Under the pieces are notes generated by a model. That model was given only the letters and a program-made list of their open reading frames with translations. It was not told the DNA's origin and searched no databases. From positions 1 through 64,000 of the forward strand of contig NC_010545.1 of NCBI RefSeq assembly GCF_000069945.1: a stretch of 64,000 bases of DNA, written 5' to 3'. Origin of the DNA: Corynebacterium urealyticum DSM 7109. Lineage in GTDB: Bacteria > Actinomycetota > Actinomycetes > Mycobacteriales > Mycobacteriaceae. Position 1 is the first letter of the stretch, and each line of letters starts with the position of its first letter. Made by a program: the position numbers and the translations under genes. Below are positions 20,650 to 44,785 of the stretch, piece by piece.

Positions 20650-23485
20650 CTACTTCTTGTACGTCATGCGCGCGTATGACTCGAAGAGGAGTTCCTGGCG
20701 CTGGCGCTCGGTGGTCAGCTTGCGGGGAGCGCCGAAGGCGCGATCCACCTCACGGTCAAGAGCATCGTGTGCCCTTAGCAAGACGGGATCCATTGCTAGC
20801 GGGTTGTAATGGTCTGCGAGAGAGCGTTCTGGGTGAAGGGCTCGGGCGTCTAGAACGCGTTGACCCGCCTTGATAATCGTCTCTCGCTGTCTCTCGGTCA
20901 GCTCGGGAACCGGGAAGGTGTTCCAAACGAGGGTGTTAGAGAAAATCAAATCCGACTTGAGGCGTCCTCCGACTGCTCTCAACCAGGTAATGAACATGGA
21001 CGAAGAGACAAGTCCGAAGAATAATCCCTGCGGGTCAACCGCCGTATAGACCTTCTCTCGGGCGATTACCTCTGGCTCTAGATGTTGAACAGCGAAGTAT
21101 CGGCGGCTCTCGGAGACTACACGGGGTATTCCAATGTATGGATCAGTTGGGCGCGGTACGGGCTGATCTTCATCAAGTGGGGAGTTGTTCGGCGCTTGTA
21201 TGCGTCACCGCTTTGAGTGGAGTTCTCCCGGAACTTCCGACACGCTTCTATGCGCTCAGTCAGCACTGGAGACTTCGAGAGGTCTGCCGGATGGAGATCC
21301 TCAAGCCACAAGCACCAGCGATAAAGTCCCCTGACCAGCTCTCGACCCATACGGAACGGTTGAACATACTTGGCGGCAACTGGGTCTGCCATTACCGTCT
21401 CGTACTCGTCCACCTCAATAATTAGGTTGCCCCCGTCAGCTGGCTTCGACCCTTGGGCAGCAAGAGGGAGCTCCGCTGAAATCGGCTTCATGGACTTGGA
21501 GACCAGGATATTTGGGCCGTCGATCAAGTATGCGTTGATTCCCTTGACGACCTCTTGGGGAACAGGATCGCTGTTTGGGGTCGGGTAATCCCATAGCCGC
21601 TGTTTTGCTGCACGATCCTTCGTGAACCCAACGATGACGCAGTGAACGGCAGCCTTTCCAGGTGCTTCCGAGTCCCACGCGAAGGTCCGGTGGGCAAACT
21701 TGATCCGCCAGCCTTCGCGCTGGATTGGCCTAAATAGGGCGGGAACGGGCTGTCCCTGGGTGATCGAATTGGGGGTAACGAAAGCAAACTCTCCGGCTCG
21801 GTCGGAGAGCACCCGCAACGTCATGGCGTGCCAAGCGGTCAGGTAGTCGAGATAGCCGTCGTAGTCTGCGCCCCACGCCCGCCGCATGTCGGCGGTCTGC
21901 TCCTTCGTCTTGGAGTACTGACCAATGAATGGAGGGTTACCGAAGATGAAGGTCTGACCCTTCGTTGCGGGTAATTCCTCGGACCAGTCCAGGGCTAGGG
22001 CGTTGTCATGGACGATGTGAGCCGTAATTTCAATCGGAAGACGGTCGGGCGCTGCTCCGATAGCGTCTGCAAGTTCGAGGTTGGCTTGGTGATCGACAAG
22101 GAACATGGCCGTCTCTGCGATCTTCGCCGGCCCCCAGTTCAGCTCGAACCCGTAGAACTGTCCGATGCTGAGCTTCTGTTCCCACGACACGTCCAGAGAC
22201 ATTCCTGCTTCGCCTTCGCGTTCACGGATTGCCACGATCACAGCGGTTTCGATCTTCCGGAGCTCTCGGTAAGCGACAACAAGGAAGTTGCCGCAGCCAC
22301 AGGCGGGATCGCAGAAGACCATATCCGCCAGTGAGCCCCGGAATTCCCGGGGTTTTTCCCCCGGCGTTGACTTCGCCTGAATCAGGCGTTTGGCTTCGTC
22401 CCGCAGTTCGTCCAGGAACAGCGGCTCGAGAGTCTTTAGAATGTTCTTCTCTGACGTGTAGTGCTCACCGTCTGCTCGGCGGGCTTCCTTGGACTTCACC
22501 AGCTGGAACATGGAGCCGAAGACAGCCGGAGAGATACGTGACCAGTGGAAGCGGCACGCGTCTAGGAGGGCTTCGCGCATGTCGTGGTCGAAGAACTCAA
22601 GAGGAAGTGAGTCAGCGAAGATGGATCCGTTCACGTACGGGAACTTCGCGAAGTGGTCTGGCACCCTTCGGCGGTGATTCTCCGGGGTGTTCAACACCTC
22701 GAACAGTGAGTTGAGCTGGGATCCAAGGTTGTCGGCGTTAGTGTGGTTGAGCACGAATCGGTAGAACAGATCCTCTTCCCACAGGCCAGCATCGTCACCG
22801 TAGAGAAGGAAGAGTAGGCGGGTCAGGTACATAGAGGACCGCTGAGTTGCTTCGTCCTCATCCTCTGGATCCGTGGGGGCTTCGTCGCCGGTGGCTTCGT
22901 CCACATCGTCACCGGCCATCGCCGTGAACAACTTTGCCATGAGACGGGAAGCTTCAATCGATGCTTCCCGTTCTTCCTGTTTGGTGATCGTCTCGTAGCC
23001 TGCTAGGAACCTGAATTGATCAAGATAGTGCCGATTTCATCGATCGTGAAGGTCTCAGCCCAACCTTCGTCCCCAAGCCGGGTGAGGCGGATATTCTCGA
23101 AGTCGGACACGATCACATACTTCGGCCACTCGTGCTGGCCGATGGATCCACCGGCGAGGTAGTCCAAGGCTTGTTTGTGGGCTACGTCCAAGTTGCGGCC
23201 AAGGGATTTGGCTTCGCCCAGGACGACACCGGACCAGAACAGATCAATCCAGCCGGACCGTCCGGTGGATGCTCGAACAGCGTCACGCTCGAAGAGGTCG
23301 ATACGCTCCGGGATGATCCCGAAGCAGCGGAACAGATCGGACCAGAACTGCTGGGCTGCTGACTTCTCAGTTGCCTCCTTAGCACTTTCTTTCCAACCGT
23401 CGATTCTCTTGCGCCACGCGTGAGAGAAGTCGTCTAGGTTCGCTTTGATGGTTGAGCGCGCGATCGGCGCGGAAACGATGGACAC
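20650..23485 (-). pseudogene. MmeI-like type IIL restriction-modification enzyme, two frameshifts
   Basis: One polypeptide of the MmeI family (fused nuclease, helical spacer, N6-adenine methyltransferase, target-recognition and C-terminal domains) is spread over three frames. Segment 23485-23003 has the nuclease D-x9-ExK motif (IDLFW...GEAK). Segment down to 21117 has methyltransferase motifs DPACGCGNF and NPPFIGQY and the recognition domain; the end at 20650 is the C-terminal domain. The frames break near 23025 (an inserted C would give EIGTHLDQFRFLAGYE) and near 21127 (an inserted G would give LGIPRVVSES). Motif I also has Cys for the usual Ser (GCGNF, compare GSGNF in the paralogue at 38 kb). 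Confidence 0.88.
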
Positions 23486-31371: not shown

Positions 31372-31494
31372 TGCCGGGTTGATGTCTGCCCAACCGCATA
31401 TCCTCCAACCCCCCTGATGAGGATGGTTGGGATGTGACTCCCCGGAAGTAAAGCCATCGAGCACCCCCCCCCCGCTCGATGGTTTTGCGCTTTC
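31372..31494 (+). ncRNA. 6C RNA
   Basis: Two stem-loops with C-rich loops, the defining feature of the actinobacterial 6C RNA. The first stem (CCCAACC...ATCCTC with GAGGAT...GGTTGGG) has CCCCCC at 31409-31414; the second (CCATCGAGC with GCTCGATGG) has ten C at 31464-31473 and ends in TTTTGCGC, so it is also the terminator. TATTAT at 31360-31365 is a suitable -10. 6C RNAs are small regulatory RNAs that act through their C-rich loops on G-rich mRNA sites. Exact ends are inferred. Confidence 0.85.
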
Positions 31495-31522: not shown

Positions 31523-32902
31523 GGGTTAAGTAAAGAAAAGTGTGTCTTTTCCGGGCGTGTTGCGGTTATTTGATCCAGCCTTTTTGGATGCCGAGGTTGT
31601 GTTGGTAGCTGGTGTCGATGGCGGTGTCGTATTCTGCTGGTGCACCGATGTCATTGGTAGTGGCTGTGGTGTTGTGGGTGATCAGGTCTGTTGCTGTGGA
31701 AAGTGCGTCTTGACCCCATCGTTGGTCCCTGGCGATCTTGACCGGATCGTCAGGGACTTCTGTATGTAGATACAGCCACCAATCCATCACTGTGCGTTGA
31801 TGCGGTAGTGATAGTCCGCGGTGTCTGCGGGCTAGTTCTTTTATGGGGGCGTTGATGCCACCTTCGAGGCTGTTTGTTGTTGCTGCAAGGTTGTCGGGGT
31901 CGATGGTTGTTGGTGGGGGTTGCAGGTAGGTAAACAGCAGGTCTCTGCGGTGCAGAGATAGCAATGATTGATAGGCCGCTCGGACGCGTTGGTGGGTGTA
32001 GACCTTGGTGTAGGCGCCGGTAACGGGGTCTTTGATGGTGGTTTTCTCGTTCATCCATTCCCGGTAGGTGTGGTCGAATTCGTGCAGGTGGGCGACCCAT
32101 GTGGATGCTTGGTCAAGGTCGGTGATGCGAGTGAGTTTCAGGGCTAGGCGGTAGAGGGTTTTGCCGGCATCGGTGCGGGGGTTGCTGGTGGTGTGGCGGC
32201 GGACTGTTCGTTGGGCGTGGACGAGGCAGCGTTGGATGCGTGTTGTTGGCCAGCAGTGGTGGATGGCTGATTGGGCACCTTGTCCGCCGTCTGTGACTGC
32301 GATTAGTGGTGCGGCAATGGGGCGTAGGAGTTCGGTGTAGGCGGCGGTGGTTTCGTGTCTGGCCCAGGTCCAGTTGATGACGTGGGTTTTACTGGCTGCG
32401 ATCAGGAGGCATCCGGACTTTAGATAGGTCGCGTCGAGGAAGATTTGGTCATGGATGCGGAATGAGTCGATGGTGGGTGTGGGGATGATCCACCAGCACC
32501 ATCGGAATCGGTGGTGCATGGTTTGCCTGGTTACGCCATGGTGTGCGGCGAAGGTGGTTAGAGATTGGGTGCCGGTGGCCCATTGGATGAACAAAGCCAT
32601 GGTGGCGGTGTTTTTGTTGTGGGTTTGGATGTTGCGGGTAAAGGAGTGTCCGCAGTGGGTGCAGCGCCAACGGGTGGTTGATTTGCTGGTGGTGCCGTTT
32701 TTCTTTGTGTTGTTGCCGCATAGTGGGCAGCTGGGGCGGTTGGTGGTCATCCTTTAATCCAACCGGTGTGCGGTTAGCACAAATGTGGCCGGAGGTGCGG
32801 GATGGTGTGGGTAATAGCTTTCGGGGAGCTATTCTTTGGTGATTTGTGGTGTGTGGTCTGGGGTTATGGTGGCATGCGGACACACTTTTCTTTACTTAAC
32901 CC
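31523..32902 (-). mobile_element. IS1249-like insertion sequence, copy A
   Basis: Perfect 24-bp terminal inverted repeats at 31523-31546 and 32879-32902 (GGGTTAAGTAAAGAAAAG... outward ends) and an 8-bp target duplication GCGGTGAG at 31515-31522 and 32903-32910. It contains one transposase gene. It inserted between the 6C RNA terminator and the TauE/SafE gene. Confidence 0.93.
31566..32750 (-). CDS. IS1249-like transposase, copy A
   Basis: A 394-residue transposase with an N-terminal zinc ribbon (CPLCG near residue 8, CTHCGHSF near residue 30), a helix-turn-helix (FAAHHGVTRQTMHHRF) and a DDE catalytic region whose first acidic residues lie in DQIFLDATYL and AVTDGGQGA, with NSLEGGIN downstream. 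This matches the IS1249-type branch of IS256-related transposases. It appears intact. It is only partly similar in sequence to the copy at 42.6 kb. Confidence 0.9.
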   Translation of the reverse strand: MTTNRPSCPLCGNNTKKNGTTSKSTTRWRCTHCGHSFTRNIQTHNKNTATMALFIQWATGTQSLTTFAAHHGVTRQTMHHRFRWCWWIIPTPTIDSFRIHDQIFLDATYLKSGCLLIAASKTHVINWTWARHETTAAYTELLRPIAAPLIAVTDGGQGAQSAIHHCWPTTRIQRCLVHAQRTVRRHTTSNPRTDAGKTLYRLALKLTRITDLDQASTWVAHLHEFDHTYREWMNEKTTIKDPVTGAYTKVYTHQRVRAAYQSLLSLHRRDLLFTYLQPPPTTIDPDNLAATTNSLEGGINAPIKELARRHRGLSLPHQRTVMDWWLYLHTEVPDDPVKIARDQRWGQDALSTATDLITHNTTATTNDIGAPAEYDTAIDTSYQHNLGIQKGWIK

Positions 32903-36405: not shown

Positions 36406-37524
36406 ATGACTGTTTCCCATCGCCCGCGCATGTCCTTTTTAGACCGCTTCCTGCCGGTGTGGATCCTTCTGGCCATGGCTGTTGGGCTACTCCTGGGCCG
36501 GACGTTCCCCGGTATTAGTGACGCTCTGGGCGCCCTGGAGGTCGGCGGGATATCCCTGCCGATCGCCCTTGGTTTGCTGGTGATGATGTACCCGCCGCTA
36601 GCGAAAGTCCGTTACGACAAGACCCGGGAGATCGTCGCCGATAAACGCCTGATGGGCGTTTCCCTCGTCCTTAATTGGCTGGTCGGGCCAGCTTTCATGT
36701 TTACTCTGGCCTGGATTTTCCTGCCGGATCAGCCGGAGTTGCGCACGGGGCTGATCATTGTCGGCCTGGCTCGGTGCATCGCGATGGTGCTCGTCTGGTC
36801 GGACCTGTCGTGTGGTGATCGGGAGGCCACGGCCGTGCTGGTGGCCATCAACTCGGTGTTCCAGGTTATTATGTTCAGCGTTCTTGGTTGGTTCTACCTC
36901 CAGATCCTGCCCTCCTGGCTGGGGCTGGCGACCACCTCGGCTGAGTTTTCCTTCTGGTCCATCGCCACCTCCGTGCTCGTCTTCCTCGGCATCCCGCTGT
37001 TGGCCGGAGTGCTCTCTCGACTCATCGGTGAGAAGACCAAGGGGCGTGCCTGGTACGAGGACACCTTCTTGCCTGCAATATCCCCGCTGGCGTTGCTCGG
37101 GCTGCTGTATACCATCGTTCTCCTGTTTTCCCTGCAAGGCGAGCAAATCACCTCCCAACCGTGGACCGTGGCTCGTCTAGCGGTGCCACTGCTGATCTAC
37201 TTCGTGGGCATGTTCGCCCTCGCGCTGGCTGTCACGAAGATGTCGGGGATGAACTACGCGCAGTCGGCGTCGGTGTCGTTCACGGCCGCAGGAAATAACT
37301 TCGAGCTGGCCATCGCCGTGGCCGTCGGTACCTTCGGGGCGAACTCCGCACAGGCGCTGGCCGGCACCATCGGGCCGCTGATCGAGGTCCCGGTGCTCGT
37401 CGGCCTGGTCTACGTCATGCTGTGGTTGGGGCCGAAACTCTTCCCCCAGGATCCGACTCTGCCCGCATCCCCCACATCGTCTTCACAGACTGCTGTATCC
37501 GAGAAGGAGAATGCCATCTCATGA
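36406..37524 (+). CDS. acr3: Acr3-family arsenite efflux permease
   Basis: A 372-residue, ten-helix permease that exports As(III). Conserved residues are the catalytic Cys in helix 4 ([16 protein letters not shown]) and Glu in helix 9 ([15 protein letters not shown]). The last 30 residues are a hydrophilic Ser/Thr-rich tail. It begins behind the ArsR operators and its stop overlaps the arsC start (ATGA at 37521-37524), so the two are translationally coupled. Confidence 0.94.
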
Positions 37525-38041: not shown

Positions 38042-40073
38042 GGACGGGCGCAGGACATCGTGCGGGCCAGCGCCGGGAGAGTGTGTCGTTGGTGCAGGAC
38101 TGTTCGAATAGGCGGCCCGTGTCTGGTGCGTTGTCTATGGTGAGAGCGTGACTTCTCCAACTGCACTTCGCCTGGACCGGGCGACCATGCGTCAGAACCT
38201 CGACCGCTTCAAGCTGCGATGGCGGGAACGCCTCGACGGCTGGGGCAACGACGACGAGGGCGGACTTGAGCGCAAGTACGCGCAGAGCTACTGGACCGAG
38301 CTTTTCGAATGCTTCGGCGTGACCGCCTCCCGCATGGACCTGTTCGAGCAGGACGCCCGGCGAGCGAGCACCGGCAAGGCCGGCTATATTGACCTGTTTT
38401 GGCCGGGTGTGGTGATCGGGGAGGCGAAGAAGCCGGGGGTCGATCTCCAGGTCGCGGTGGATCAGGCACGCGACTACCTGCTCGGCGGCACGATTACGCC
38501 GTCCGAGCAGCCCCGTTACATCCTCGCCAGCGACTTCGAGCGCCACCGTTTGGTGCGGCTCGGCTCGGCAGAGCAGCGCTTCGACATTGAGTTCCCGCTC
38601 GCGGAGGTCACCGAGCACGTCGATGAGCTGAAGTTCCTCGCCGGTTACGAGGAGACCCTCACGCGGGAGGAGCAGCAGGAGGCCTCGATCCAGGCATCAC
38701 GCCTGATGGCCGACCTGTTCACCGCAATGGTCGGCGACGAGGTCGACGAGGAAGTCGGCGATGAGGCCCCGACCAACCCTGAGGACGAAGACGCCGCCGT
38801 CCAGGTGACGTCGATGTATCTGACCCGTCTGCTGTTCCTGCTGTTCGCCGAGGACTCCGGGGTCATTGAGCAGGATCTCTTCTATCGCTTCGTTCTGGAG
38901 CACACCACCAGCGAGAACTTGGGAAGCCAGCTTGGTGCGTTGTTTGAGGTGCTGAATACCCCGGAGGCTCAGCGCCGCCGGGTGCCGGATTCCATGGCGC
39001 GTTTTCCGTACATCAACGGGGCGATCTTCGCGGAGACGATGCCCACGCAGTTCTTCACCCCCGAGATGCGCGATGCGCTGCTGAATGCGTGCCGGTTCCG
39101 GTGGACGAACATCAGCCCTGCCTTGTTCGGGTCGATGTTCCAGCTGGTGAAGTCGAAGGAGGCTCGCCGGGATGACGGTGAGCACTACACCTCCGAGAAG
39201 AACATCCTGAAGACCATTGGTCCGCTGTTTTTGGACGAGCTGCGCGCTGAAGCCGACCGGCTGATCGCGGCGAAGTCCACGCCGGTGGCGAAGTTGCGGG
39301 CGTTCCGCGACAGTTTAGCCGACATGGTGTTCTGCGACCCGGCCTGCGGTAGTGGCAACTTCCTCATCGTGGCTTATCGCGAGCTGCGCAAGATCGAGAC
39401 GGACGTGATTGTCGCCATCCGTGAGCGCGAGGGCACGACGGATCTGGCGCTCGATATTTCTTGGGAGCAGAAGCTATCCATCGGGCAGTTCTATGGCATT
39501 GAGTTGAACTGGTGGCCGGCCCGTATTGCGGAGACCGCGATGTTCCTGGTTGATCACCAGGCCAACCGGGAGCTGGCCGACCGGGTGGGGCTGGCACCGG
39601 ATCGCCTGCCGATCTCGATTACAGCGCACATTGAGCATGCGAACGCACTGGCCGTGGACTGGCTGGAGATCCTCCCCGAGGCCGCCGGGATGACCTATAT
39701 CTTCGGCAACCCACCGTTTATCGGCCAGTACACGAAGACCAGCGAGCAGACCGAGGACATGCGCCGTGTGTGGGGCAATGACTACGACGGCTACTTGGAC
39801 TACGTCACCGGCTGGCACGCCCAGGCCAAAAACTTGCTGGCCGAGCGCCGGGGCGAATTCGCCTATGTGACCACGAACTCGATCACCCAGGGTCAGCCGG
39901 TACCCGCGCTGTTTGGCCCACTGCAGCGCGAGGGTTGGCGGATCAAGTTCGCTCACCGCACCTTCGCCTGGGACTCCGAAGCCCCAGGCAAGGCGGCCGT
40001 GCACTGTGTGATCGTTGGATTCACCAAGAACCGCGCCGTTAAGCAGCGGCTGTGGGACTACCCTGAAATCCGC

Positions 40074-40085
40074 GGGGGGGGGGGG
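40074..40085 (+). repeat. G12 homopolymer, candidate phase-variation tract
   Basis: Twelve consecutive G between the methyltransferase and recognition domains of the R-M gene. It encodes only Gly, so length changes in steps of three are tolerated while other steps shift the frame. Current state: off. Confidence 0.8.
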
Positions 40086-40575
40086 TAGAGCAAAGAATCG
40101 AGAAGGGGATCAATGCCTACCTCATCGATGGTGCAAATGTGCTCGTGAAGAAGCGATCGAAACCACTTGCCGATATTCCACCTGCTCGGTTTGGCACCAA
40201 GCCAGCGGATGGTGGAAATCTCATCGTGGAAGTCGATGAATACGCAGAGGTAGCAGCCGATCCGGTCGCAGCGAAATACCTGCGCCCTTTTCGTGGTTCG
40301 AGAGAACTTGTGCGAGGTCTTGACCGCTGGTGTCTCTGGATGGGTGACGAAGATTTTGACCCCTCTGATATCACTAGGTCACATGTCTTGAAGCAACGCG
40401 TCACCGACTGCAAGAGGTTTCGCGAGCAAAGTTCTCCTAGCGGTGACGCTTTCAAACTAAAAGGCATCCCACATCTCATGCGGTCCAACAAAGACCGTCC
40501 GGTAGTAGATCACTTGCTGATCCCCTCAGTAGTAAGCGAAACTCGTCCGTACTTCACTGCACAGCAGGTCACCGG

Positions 40576-42016
40576 GAGGGTGTCAGGAAGTTTGTGTGTG
40601 AGGCTCTGATCGAGAAGGAGTGTCACCGATAATGACTACTGTGTCACCGAAGAAAGGCCATGACCCGGCGAGGGTCAACGAGATCAGCGAGAAGCTGATG
40701 GAAAATCCTGAGCTGGCTAGCCTGATCAGCGAGCTGTCGACCTCCGCTGATGATGCCAGCGAGCTGGTCAAAGGCCTGCTGCAGGCATCAATCAACGCTG
40801 GTCTGCAGGCGGAGATGGATGCGCATTTGGGCTATAGCCACTCCGACCGCAAGTCCAAAGCCCAGGTTGAACCCGTGCACGGCGGCAATCACCGCAACGG
40901 GTCGTACACCAAGACCGTCAATTCTGGCTACGGCGCGGTGGAAGTGACCGTGCCCAGGGATCGTGCCGGCACGTTTACTCCGAAGATGGTGCCCAAGGGC
41001 GCACGGCGGCTCACAGAGCTCGACGACATGATCGTCTCGCTATACGCCGGTGGGATGACAGTGCGCGATATTCAGCATCACCTCGCGACCACGCTCGGGG
41101 TGGATATGAGCCCGGATACGATCAGCACGATCACCGATGCGGTGTTAGACGAGGTCATGATCTGGCAAAACCGCCAGCTCGACGAGTTTTACCCGGTGAT
41201 CTTCCTCGACGCGCTACGCGTGAAAATCCGTGACGGTCACCGCGTGGTCAATAAGGCCTGCTACATGGCGGTTGGTGTCGACATGGACGGCATCAAGCAC
41301 ATCCTGGGATTGTGGATTGCCGATAATGAAGGCGCTGCATTCTGGGCATCGGTGTGCGCGGATCTGGCCAACCGTGGCGTCCAGGACGTGTTCATCGTGT
41401 GCTGCGACGGGCTGAAAGGCTTGCCGGAAGCTGTCGAGGCAACCTGGCCGAATTCCATGGTGCAAACCTGCATTGTGCACCTGATTCGGGCTTCGAACCG
41501 GTGGGTGTCGCATCAGGACCGCAAATCTGTCTCCCGTGCGCTACGTGAGGTCTACACGGCCGCCAACGAGGACACCGCACGTGCCAGCCTGGACGCGTTC
41601 CAGGCCAGTGAACTGGGCCAGAGATACCCGCAATCGGTCAAAGTCTGGCGCGACGCCTGGGACCGGTTCGTGCCGTTTTTACAGTTCCCGCCAGCGGCCC
41701 GCCGGGTGCTCTACACCACGAATTCGATCGAATCGCTCAACGCTGAACTGCGTAAAGCTACCCGTAACCGCGGGCAATTCCCGAACGACACCGCGGCGCT
41801 GAAAACGCTGTGGCTGATGATCTGCAACATCGAAGACAAGCGCGCTGCCCAGCGAGCGAAAAAAGCGAAGCGCGACATCGAATGCAATGGCTATATTGAA
41901 GGGGCGAAAGCCACCGGGTGGAAACAAGCCATCAACCAACTAGCTGTGGCATACCCCGACCGATTCGCGGACTACTTGTAAACCAAGCCCCCGCACACAA
42001 ACAATCGGACACTCTC
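40576..42016 (+). mobile_element. IS256-family insertion sequence
   Basis: Outward ends GAGGGTGTCAGGAAGTTTGT (left, from 40576) and GAGAGTGTCCGATTGTTTGT (right, complement, from 42016) are imperfect inverted repeats of about 28 bp. An 8-bp target duplication GTCACCGG lies at 40568-40575 and 42017-42024. The length is 1441 bp with one transposase gene. Confidence 0.93.
40632..41981 (+). CDS. IS256-family transposase
   Basis: A 449-residue mutator-type transposase: LLQASINAGLQAEMDAHLGY near the N-terminus, the first catalytic Asp in VIFLDALRVKIRDG, the second in VFIVCCDGLKGLPEA, and the Glu in YTTNSIESLNAELRKATRNRG. It appears intact. ATG 40632 follows GAAGGAG by twelve bases; an upstream GTG at 40620 would overlap the ribosome site. 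Confidence 0.93.
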   Translation: MTTVSPKKGHDPARVNEISEKLMENPELASLISELSTSADDASELVKGLLQASINAGLQAEMDAHLGYSHSDRKSKAQVEPVHGGNHRNGSYTKTVNSGYGAVEVTVPRDRAGTFTPKMVPKGARRLTELDDMIVSLYAGGMTVRDIQHHLATTLGVDMSPDTISTITDAVLDEVMIWQNRQLDEFYPVIFLDALRVKIRDGHRVVNKACYMAVGVDMDGIKHILGLWIADNEGAAFWASVCADLANRGVQDVFIVCCDGLKGLPEAVEATWPNSMVQTCIVHLIRASNRWVSHQDRKSVSRALREVYTAANEDTARASLDAFQASELGQRYPQSVKVWRDAWDRFVPFLQFPPAARRVLYTTNSIESLNAELRKATRNRGQFPNDTAALKTLWLMICNIEDKRAAQRAKKAKRDIECNGYIEGAKATGWKQAINQLAVAYPDRFADYL

Positions 42017-42488
42017 GTCACCGGTGACGTAATCGCGAGCAATCTTGCGTTTACAGTGAGCGATCCATCGGGTCTTTCTTTCGCGTTAATTTCTTCCTCA
42101 ATGTTCATCACGTGGCAACGCACTGTAGGTGGGCGCATGAAGTCTGATCTTCGGTTTGCGAACACGCTGACGTGGAACACCTTCCCCGTTCCGGAGCTTG
42201 ATGCGAAGGCGCGACAGCGCATCGTCGACGCGGGCAAGAAGGTTCTGGAAGCACGGGCGCTGTACCCAGAGCGTTCCTTGGCGGAGCACTATAACCCGCT
42301 GGCGATGGCACCCGAGCTGCTAAACGCCCACGATGATCTTGACCGTGAGGTCGATAAAGCATTCGGGGCGCCACGGAAACTCACGACAGAGCGCCAGCGT
42401 CAAGAGCTACTGTTCGCAAACTACGACGCTCTCACGGATAAGCCCTAGGAAAGCACGGTTTTTTGGTGTCTGACCGAGGGTAAATCTG

Positions 42489-43873
42489 GGGTTAAGGGTC
42501 AAAAAGTGTGTCCGGAATCGCGGATTTTCACGGATTGACCTGTAGGTTTCCGGAAAGTATATGCTCCGGAAGCATATATCTAGCCCCCGACGGGAAATCC
42601 TCGGTGTGGCAGCCGTGATGTGCTATGCGCGGCGTGGTGTGGTGTCGCAATGTCGAAGAACCAACCACGCTGCCACTGCGGCGGTGAAATGAAACGCAAC
42701 GGCACCACCAGCAAAGGCACCACCAGATGGCGCTGCAAACAATGCGGCGCCTCCAGCGTCAAACGTCGAAACGACATCACCAACGCGGCAGTGTTCACCC
42801 AGTTCATCGAGCATTGCACCACCGCAATATCACTCGACGACCTAGCCAAACGAAACGGTGTTAGCCGCGCCACCATGAAGCGGCGCTTCAAGTGGTGCTG
42901 GCTCGTTGATGTGCCTGACCCCACCGCCGGCCACCACAAGCGGATCTACGACCAGGTATTTCTCGATGGCACCTACACCGCCGGTGGCTGCCTGATCGTC
43001 GCGGCGACCATCGACCACGTGATCGCCTGGCACTGGTGCAAACACGAAACCACCCGCGACTACCAACTGCTGCTTGAACGCATCGAAGCCCCACTCATCG
43101 CCGTCATCGACGGCGGCCAAGGCGCATACAGCGCAATCAAAAAGTGCTGGCCGACTACGAAAATTCAACGCTGCCTCGTCCACGCCCAACGCGTGGTCCG
43201 CCGCTACACCACCACCAACCCACGCACCGATGCCGGGCGCACCATCTACCGACTTGCGCTGAAACTGACCCGGATCACCACACTGGATGAAGCCGCCGCG
43301 TGGGGTGTGCAACTGCACGAGTTTTCAACGATCTACCGGGAATGGATGAACGAGAAAACCATGATCAAAGACCCCAAAACAGGTGCATGGACCCGCGTGT
43401 GGACCCACCACAACGTGCGCAAGGCCTACAACAGCCTCAACCATCTTTGGCGGTCCGAGATGCTGTTTGTCTACCTCAACCCGCCAGCAGGAGTCCTTGC
43501 GCCCGAGCGGATCAAATCCACCACCAACAGCTTAGAAGGCGGCATCAACGCCCAGCTCAAACTGCTCGCCAGAACCCACCGCGGCAGATCAGGCGAACGA
43601 CAACGCCGCATGCTGGATTGGTGGCTCTACTTAAAAACGGAACTGCCTGACGATCCAGTACGAATCGCCAGGCAGTCCGACTGGGGCCAGGGCCAACTCG
43701 CCAAAGTATCCACCCTGACCCAACACGAGAACCAAGCCGACCACGAAACAGGACGCCCAGCCCTCTACGACAACGCTATCGACACCGACTACACCCACTC
43801 AATCGGCATTCAAAAAGGCCAAATCTAACCCCCGCGACACGCCGAGCCAGACACACATTTTGACCCTTAACCC
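42489..43873 (+). mobile_element. IS1249-like insertion sequence, copy B
   Basis: Inverted ends GGGTTAAGGGTCAAAA(A/T)GTGTGTC at 42489 and 43873 (one mismatch) and an 8-bp target duplication TAAATCTG at 42481-42488 and 43874-43881. The length is 1385 bp with one transposase. Its ends and protein resemble but do not equal those of copy A at 31.5 kb, so it is a distinct relative. Confidence 0.92.
42650..43828 (+). CDS. IS1249-like transposase, copy B
   Basis: A 392-residue transposase with an N-terminal zinc ribbon (CHCGGE, then CKQCGAS), helix-turn-helix LAKRNGVSRATMKRRF, and the DDE region with DQVFLDGTYT, AVIDGGQGA and NSLEGGIN. ATG 42650 is favoured since the zinc ribbon follows directly; the frame could extend to 42620. 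Apparently intact. Confidence 0.9.
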   Translation: MSKNQPRCHCGGEMKRNGTTSKGTTRWRCKQCGASSVKRRNDITNAAVFTQFIEHCTTAISLDDLAKRNGVSRATMKRRFKWCWLVDVPDPTAGHHKRIYDQVFLDGTYTAGGCLIVAATIDHVIAWHWCKHETTRDYQLLLERIEAPLIAVIDGGQGAYSAIKKCWPTTKIQRCLVHAQRVVRRYTTTNPRTDAGRTIYRLALKLTRITTLDEAAAWGVQLHEFSTIYREWMNEKTMIKDPKTGAWTRVWTHHNVRKAYNSLNHLWRSEMLFVYLNPPAGVLAPERIKSTTNSLEGGINAQLKLLARTHRGRSGERQRRMLDWWLYLKTELPDDPVRIARQSDWGQGQLAKVSTLTQHENQADHETGRPALYDNAIDTDYTHSIGIQKGQI

Positions 43874-44104: not shown

Positions 44105-44785
44105 ATGGATTCCAACAACAATCTAACGAGCGATCTCGACAAGTGGTTCTCGCCTGCGCGGATGAGCACCTATGCCCACCACCCGGACCCTGAAGCTCTC
44201 TATCTCTGGAATACTCATGTCACCAAGGCTTTCCTGGAGGACCTCCAGCATGTCGAGGTGCTGCTACGAAACTGCGTAGACACCGCAGTCGCTCCGCGCT
44301 ACGGGGCCAGGTGGTACACCAACCCGGCCATCCCGTTCGTAACACCGGCCAAGAGGGCCATCAGGAAAGCAGAACAACGTGCACGTACACGAAGAGAACC
44401 AACCCCACCGCCGGGGCGGGTCATCGCCGAACTCAGCTTCGATTTTTGGGCCTACCTGTTCACCAAGACCTACGCCTCGACCCTCTGGCCGCTGGTTCGT
44501 AAAGCTTTGATCGGCACACCGACACCTATTACTGACGGAAGCAAGCCTGGTGTCTTCGTCCCCAATCTCAACGAATTCAGATGTGAAGTCGATGTGGTCT
44601 ACAAACTGCGTAATCGGTGTGCCCATCATGAGCCGATCATCAGACAGAACCGGCAGGACGAAAACGAAGATTTCGATCGAGCACAGCTAGCCATAGAGAA
44701 GTTGTCTACCTGGATTGACCCCTCTGCGGCGCAATGGATAGCCACCAACTCCAGACTCCCCGAATTACGGACTAGCAGGCCGTAG
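44105..44785 (+). CDS. Abi_2/HEPN-like protein
   Basis: A 226-residue protein resembling the Abi_2 (AbiD/F-like) family of phage-exclusion proteins: LYLWNTHVTKAFLEDLQHVEVLLRN, then ELSFDFWAYLFTKTYASTLWP, and near the C-terminus LRNRCAHHEPI. The R-N-x3-H motif (RNRCAH) is the catalytic signature of HEPN ribonucleases, so it may cleave RNA upon phage infection. It stands alone behind IS copy B; the preceding gap (43941-44104) includes a possible -10 TACACT. Confidence 0.7.
   Translation: MDSNNNLTSDLDKWFSPARMSTYAHHPDPEALYLWNTHVTKAFLEDLQHVEVLLRNCVDTAVAPRYGARWYTNPAIPFVTPAKRAIRKAEQRARTRREPTPPPGRVIAELSFDFWAYLFTKTYASTLWPLVRKALIGTPTPITDGSKPGVFVPNLNEFRCEVDVVYKLRNRCAHHEPIIRQNRQDENEDFDRAQLAIEKLSTWIDPSAAQWIATNSRLPELRTSRP

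Follow-up and report, generated by a model that had tools for sequence, protein, structure and literature searches.

Cj0031, a type IIG restriction-modification (R-M) gene of Campylobacter jejuni NCTC11168, is among the described systems closest to the locus reported here. According to excerpts of the published account, it carries a poly-G tract, flanked by conserved domains, inside the open reading frame (ORF) of a single-chain enzyme; a frame change splits the gene into two ORFs, the tract is missing in many homologues and other strains, and phase variation, which affects methylation, has been reported both in vivo and in vitro (PMC4889913). The same source counts 12-29 polyG/polyC tracts able to mediate phase variation in C. 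jejuni genomes (PMC4889913). A further type IIG case, JHP1272 / HP1353-HP1354 of Helicobacter pylori, is likewise homopolymer-switched, and its recognition region has been likened to that of MmeI; two tracts, the first being a C repeat encoding PPPP, switch activity in one case and specificity in the other, and were tested experimentally (PMC3936762, excerpts).

An actinobacterial frame switch based on G tracts is known from the pilus genes of Bifidobacterium breve, that is, from a surface structure and not from an R-M system. In excerpts of that work, deep sequencing demonstrated heterogeneity in single-colony culture, with a tract annotated as G11 read as G12 in 60% and as G11 in 37%, and G11 is called a strong slippage motif relative to G10 (PMC9187656). 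In another actinobacterium, Propionibacterium (Cutibacterium) acnes, 54 length-variable tracts (96% G/C, 72% intergenic) are reported, and one R-M system was inactivated five times independently; this case differs in that its authors, in the portion of the paper cited here, see slow accumulation along clades as more likely than active modification, a view that counsels caution here as well (PMC4746626).

In this work, we describe a G12 tract in a gene of Corynebacterium urealyticum DSM 7109 (genome G000), located in a stretch of 64,000 nucleotides that was analysed as a whole and is hereafter called the window. Unlike Cj0031, the Corynebacterium gene is MmeI-like, is interrupted by an insertion sequence (IS), and is known here from the sequence of one genome. 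Compared with the 12-29 tracts of C. jejuni, the whole chromosome has four G/C runs of at least 11, one of them inside a conserved gene. Among the open-literature papers listed for phase-variable R-M, slippage or methylomes together with Corynebacterium, none reported such a gene in the genus, judging by the listings and the openings of abstracts, in agreement with the first-pass annotation of this DNA, which knew of no such system described in the genus.

The G12 tract within an interrupted MmeI-like gene

The features of the locus and its surroundings are as follows (window coordinates, strand in brackets).

20650..23485 (-): paralogue, a second MmeI-like gene with two frameshifts and a linker without G tract (Pfam, tblastn)
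38148..40088 (+): 5' part of the gene, i.e., nuclease, helical spacer and methyltransferase; 646 aa, GTG start, TAG end (Pfam, PADLOC, motifs)
40074..40085 (+): G12 homopolymer at the joint between methyltransferase and recognition domain (sequence; within the constant-length 15-residue linker of the relatives)
40086..40088 (+): TAG stop directly 3' of G12, in the upstream frame (sequence, ORF listing)
40088..40575 (+): initial portion of the target recognition domain, out of frame with the methyltransferase (tblastn with the G148 protein; MmeI_TRD 6.5e-32, profile 6-148)
40568..40575 (+): left copy of the 8-bp target duplication, GTCACCGG (sequence)
40576..42016 (+): insertion sequence of the IS256 family, 1441 bp, splitting the recognition domain (transpos_IS256 5.9e-118; termini and duplication)
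40620-41981 (+): IS256 transposase (profile match within the IS)
42017..42024 (+): right copy of the 8-bp target duplication, GTCACCGG (sequence)
42017..42448 (+): rest of the recognition domain and MmeI C-terminal domain (MmeI_TRD 2.4e-22, profile 146-207; MmeI_C 2.2e-18; tblastn)
44105..44785 (+): Abi_2-family gene, abortive-infection-like (PF07751, 1.7e-5, 25.7 bits against a cut-off of 25.6)

In the 5' ORF, Pfam profiles matched MmeI_N (2.9e-27), MmeI_hel (1.1e-18) and MmeI_Mtase (1e-83), and the PADLOC model REase_MTase_IIG matched the same part (2.4e-224). With the recognition and C-terminal domains found further downstream, all five MmeI Pfam domains are at the locus in type IIL order, which, along with the PADLOC IIG model, bears out the initial description of the gene as an MmeI-like type IIL enzyme. 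The conserved catalytic motifs of the type are also present, since the 646-aa ORF contains GYIDLFWPGVVIGEAKK from aa 79, DPACGSGNF from aa 397 and NPPF from aa 521; D83, E93-K95, DPACG.GNF and NPPF are invariant columns across 18 intact relatives plus P0001 (L068 numbering). We take D...EAK to be the nuclease motif, DPACGSGNF to be methyltransferase motif I, and NPPF to be a methyltransferase motif as well. What the locus does not encode is a single uninterrupted polypeptide, as found in the intact relatives: the frame is broken at G12 and the gene is split by the IS256 element. The allele belongs to the MmeI-like type IIL family and is inactivated.

The homopolymer of twelve G was read directly from the window. 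The upstream frame, corresponding to the 646-aa ORF, is terminated by the TAG at the end of the tract; the target recognition domain 3' of it lies in a different frame from the methyltransferase, as determined by tblastn with the intact G148 protein; and the third frame stays open for 54 codons, four of them within the tract, before a stop. It is, therefore, a long homopolymer inside an ORF, with its length setting the downstream frame. The placement at the domain joint is based on Pfam boundaries and on the alignment to MmeI (PDB 5HR4), to which an intact relative is homologous over nearly its whole length (phmmer E 1.8e-177); G12 maps to the short stretch before NINPYLRDG of MmeI, at approximately residues 604-609 of the 5HR4 chain. 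This comparison with MmeI was made at the protein level, and the Corynebacterium allele, unlike MmeI, is interrupted. The first-pass annotation had thus correctly described the tract and its stop codon, its position between methyltransferase and recognition domain, the continuation of the latter in another frame and the off state of the gene in this assembly. It had further stated that the paralogue has a loop at the place of G12: the paralogue does have a linker of family length, and no homopolymer of at least 6 anywhere, but it is itself broken by its two frameshifts.

These two, the frame break at G12 and the IS256 insertion, are the only lesions in the gene. The insertion leaves this copy dead at any tract length, and because the element also splits the recognition domain, the tract is uncoupled from function in this chromosome. 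The Abi_2-family neighbour is consistent with a defence neighbourhood. The region is also rich in insertions, with three transposase genes in about 12 kb (Mutator/MULE-like at 31566-32750, IS256 at 40620-41981 and IS1249 at 42620-43828), among which are found a gene for an ACR3 arsenite pump (36406-37524) and the R-M gene.

Regarding the repair background, NucS was found in this genome and MutS_V was not, as in a host without repair of short indels. The blindness to indels is taken from the literature: mutation-accumulation data from M. smegmatis and C. glutamicum indicate that NucS leaves short indels uncorrected (PMC8228993, excerpts), and in M. smegmatis, which naturally lacks MutS/MutL, simple repeats account for 79% of small indels (PMC4938668, excerpts). 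On this basis, G12 would be expected to slip, and the tract is likely to be unstable. In the proposed mechanism, the slippage-prone G12 would occupy G-rich linker codons at the joint between methyltransferase and recognition domain, and about one third of the tract lengths would put both halves in one frame. At G12 the ribosome would stop at once, leaving a nuclease-methyltransferase without recognition domain which, judging from the family, should neither bind nor modify and would hence be inert. Since the enzyme is a single chain, loss of frame would remove cutting and protection together. An earlier suggestion that switching would occur without self-damage therefore fits switching off, but switching on in an unmethylated genome would be expected to set cutting against protection.

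Transcriptional slippage on homopolymers is known in general, which lends some credit to the idea that RNA polymerase slips on G12 and produces some full-length mRNA, so that dosage is lowered and not switched. The term also occurs in excerpts of the Bifidobacterium paper (PMC9187656). Here, however, the IS blocks any full-length product, and we regard this explanation as highly improbable.

Long G/C runs in the genus and the linker in relatives

The frequency of such runs was assessed in a sample of 444 kb, comprising the window and 19 spread 20-kb stretches (19% of the chromosome), in which 679 G/C runs of length 5, 18 of length 6 and 1 of length 7 were counted. Only two runs of at least 8 occur in it, C10 at 31464 and G12, both in the window, with none in the 380 kb of the sample outside the window. 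For runs of at least 12, the expectation in the sample is 0.03 under a second-order and 0.26 under a first-order Markov model, the latter being a poor model because it predicts 423 runs of at least 6 versus 21 seen. At the level of the genus, 117 of 242 Corynebacterium genomes have at least one G/C run of at least 11, so that long runs as such are not rare; the unusual part of G12 is its location inside a conserved gene.

The C10 run (31464-31473) sits in the loop of an inverted repeat (31450-31486) with 13-nt arms that are 92% complementary and an end in TTTT; the repeat is terminator-like, and its fold is no better than those of shuffles (z -0.63). One tract was inspected in each of 30 of the 117 genomes, and Pfam was applied to 10 frames from 8 of these 30 loci. 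Two G12 tracts were found within frames that are open across the tract, one in a Fic/DOC-family protein (L104, G029 C1 near 103293) and one in an AMP-binding/PP-binding protein (L108, G129 C1 near 5621), both of which are, by their sequence, further candidates for slippage switching; the G129 assembly may be unreliable, given its very many pattern matches (107 and 174).

A match to the gene at E <=1e-60 was obtained in 63 of 201 Corynebacterium genomes. Intact relatives include G148 (82% identity, 949 aa), Corynebacterium sp. NML130628 (G193; L068 5986-8841) and C. uropygiale (G131), among others; G148, the closest full-length intact relative, reads DIRGEGVEQ at the place of the tract. Between LWDY (or a variant) and INAYL(V/I)DG (or a variant), each of the 34 distinct relative linkers has exactly 15 residues, these being the linkers readable in one frame, while frame-broken copies were covered, where fetched, by a scan of 88 loci. 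The longest G run was 2 in 2 of the linkers, 3 in 25, 4 in 6 and 5 in 1, and none had a run above 5. Similarly, no relative among the 88 loci had a G/C run of at least 8 inside the gene; apart from the copies belonging to the window, the two hits (L069, L076) are outside it. Partial genes, several loci from one place and the copies of the window itself are counted among the 88. Of the listed places in each of two homologue searches, the best 30 became loci, some weaker homologues of the genus being left out. The pattern TGGGAYTAY followed by 2-24 bases and nine G, which misses relatives without the residues WDY, matched G000 and G375 only among 401 family genomes, and G000 alone among 394 class genomes. 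The G375 match (L151, C5 near 668608) is a G run of more than 20 in a different sequence context, preceded by TGGGATTACAGG, which we take to resemble the human Alu sequence, and may represent contamination. Regarding mobile replicons, searches of viral contigs, two pattern scans among them, yielded no other allele, and 59 plasmid records match, the 20 listed of the 59 at 64.5-69.2% identity; 5 of the 59, outside those 20, have their best place at 80-90% identity.

A conserved contingency locus with a tract common to relatives is, therefore, ruled out for those examined (34 linkers, 88 loci and the pattern scans). Conservation in orthologues would support phase variation but is not strictly required for it, and it was not observed. 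The first-pass annotation had proposed that relatives with an intact gene lacking any G tract would reduce the case to decay or an assembly error. Such relatives were indeed found, but their existence does not settle the matter, as the tract is also missing from many homologues of Cj0031, whose phase variation is proven.

The linkers bear as well on whether a shorter or mixed linker was read as G12 through a sequencing or assembly error. For B. breve, according to excerpts of the report, the lengths measured for the tract did not match the sequence in the database (PMC9187656), and the count of exactly 12 may likewise be the consensus of a mixed tract or an error. Against this, twelve G stand where the relatives have ten bases with 2-7 G, which is more than a one-base miscount, and an error as the source of the tract appears very unlikely to us. 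We conclude that this is a genuine tract, of probable instability, in a recently inactivated type IIL gene.

Broken MmeI-like copies are common in the genus: they include the paralogue and the copies of G017, G186 C1, G050 C1 and G107, and the gene is split in G055, G022 and G191. In these last three Corynebacterium genomes, the cut is at or just before motif I (DPACGSGNF), at G055 C1 near 256133 (L088:4134), at G022 C1 near 58713 (L089:3714), and at G191 C1 near 722761 and 773851 (L090, L091). The inserted DNA of G022 and G191 has a nearly identical start, after which comes a restriction gene of the GmrSD family; G191 further has two large serine recombinases behind it, and the other half of the gene is located 51 kb away on the same strand. 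This insertion looks like a mobile defence element targeting the R-M gene.

Comparison with the sister genome

Corynebacterium sp. HMSC27B11 (G017) carries the same gene at the same place, the two genomes being 95.6% identical across 3.7 kb that extend from upstream into the gene and 98.5% identical across 583 bases downstream. Over 490 codons, 35.5 synonymous and 5.5 non-synonymous differences separate G000 from G017, and the 5' part gives a dS of 0.108, a dN of 0.0049 and a dN/dS of 0.046; hence, the gene was recently under purifying selection, stayed active through most of the divergence and was functional until recently. If all non-synonymous changes fell in the dead period, the 95% bound is 0.010 per site, which equals about 9% of the synonymous divergence; whether the tract or the IS disabled the gene, this would accordingly have happened recently.

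The copy of G017 is also disrupted. Contig C4 leaves the gene after approximately window position 39620 and ends 30 bases on, and the first bases of contig C43, as far as GGG, are also present where contig C10 ends, the gene resuming in C43 with TAGAGC; this common sequence is probably the end of an insertion element. No match to the gene part from about 39620 to 40083 was found in G017, and since its tract sequence is not recoverable, the restriction of the tract to one genome cannot be pressed against the nearest relative. The 3' end of the gene is much more diverged between both genomes, with a dS of 0.80 against 0.108 in the 5' part (38148-42448 compared with L078 / L079), and immediately 3' of the tract 71 of 72 bases are identical; taken together, this suggests an exchange of the recognition domain with a putative breakpoint about 70 bases 3' of the G tract.

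The three other G/C runs of at least 11 in G000 (G000:C1:1280576, 1470524 and 302995; L006, L007 and L003, respectively) are located outside or at the edges of genes. Where G000 has C11, C11 and an intergenic G13, G017 has CCCCGCC, C7 and a stretch without a run >5, all three being shorter (4 to 7) in the sister; the comparison involves these two genomes alone, and the change may have fallen on either side. Genome-wide, G017 has one run of at least 11, of exactly 11, versus four of 11-13 in G000. As these other long runs also differ from the sister, long runs in this genome are not special to the R-M gene, and pure and impure G/C runs apparently interconvert in these genomes without selection on it. 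All evidence on tract length comes from one assembled genome per species.

Some further details of these loci were observed. The C11 at 1280576 is 12 bases 5' of the start codon of an ORF that by eye is similar to a helix-turn-helix regulator, and could alter its expression. Near position 1590 of L007 (G000:C1 near 1470610), a T-run of six in this genome is of five in G017; it sits in the 3' part of a reverse-strand ORF (L007 1279-1929), and this one-base difference, either a real frameshift or a sequencing error, may be the reason why the ORF runs through the C11 here.

Origin of the tract and its significance

The gene displays the sequence features of a phase-variable gene; adaptive phase variation is here a hypothesis. 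An adaptive contingency locus would imply that selection acted on the tract because it reversibly switched a working type IIL enzyme, with mixed populations of restricting and non-restricting cells, and that the IS arrived later in this strain. Such an origin is favoured by the location of the tract between conserved domains of a single-chain enzyme, a parallel to Cj0031 (PMC4889913, excerpts), and by the related case of H. pylori JHP1272/HP1353 (PMC3936762, excerpts), as well as by the presence of only two lesions and the dN/dS of 0.046. Furthermore, 3-4 changes to G are needed from the two most tract-like relative linkers (L010, L009) by point mutation alone, which is unlikely within a dead time as short as the non-synonymous bound of 0.010 per site allows. 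Conversely, the tract is in no relative examined, the gene is IS-interrupted here and disrupted in G017, and the CCCCGCC of the sister versus the C11 of this genome at another locus indicates that runs interconvert without this gene, which weakens the argument that point mutations under selection had to build G12. Mainly because the other long runs differ from the sister too, we do not rate selection of the tract higher and consider it unlikely; the initial claim of a working, selected phase switch is likewise not sustained, given the relatives without tract, the differing long runs and the copy killed by IS256.

That G12 is a by-product of decay has to be taken seriously as an alternative to past toggling of a functional enzyme: the R-M gene would have been inactivated by the IS or by an earlier frameshift, and the G-run would then have grown neutrally, never switching a working enzyme. 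The frequency of broken MmeI-like copies in the genus supports this, as do the other long G/C runs that differ from the sister; however, the dN/dS leaves little dead time (a 95% bound of about 9% of the synonymous divergence), and the lesions of the paralogue, G186, G050 and G107 are without a run of at least 6 (the last three assessed by eye), so that a homopolymer is not the usual way in which these genes break. We consider this origin a real possibility, although short of probable.

Three other runs differ from the sister and have no obvious role in switching, so that G12 can be accounted for by a mutational origin. The reading that we favour, and judge fairly probable, is that of a slippage-prone G12, found so far only in this genome, which is capable of phase variation, is uncoupled from function by the IS, and for which a mutational origin suffices. 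The stronger proposal that a Corynebacterium type IIL enzyme is, or recently was, an on/off phase-variable R-M system, with a G tract hypermutable in a NucS-only host and IS-free siblings that switch, as a convergent actinobacterial counterpart of Cj0031, is put forward tentatively and seems to us rather doubtful.

If the tract toggles in IS-free relatives, slippage-switched single-chain R-M would be extended from Campylobacter and Helicobacter to Corynebacterium, and the locus would provide a natural readout of the rate of homopolymer change where mismatch repair leaves indels. If decay is the explanation, the case would be one for caution: as the remaining long G/C runs of G000 suggest, what looks like textbook phase variation in a single genome can have arisen recently as a by-product of mutation.
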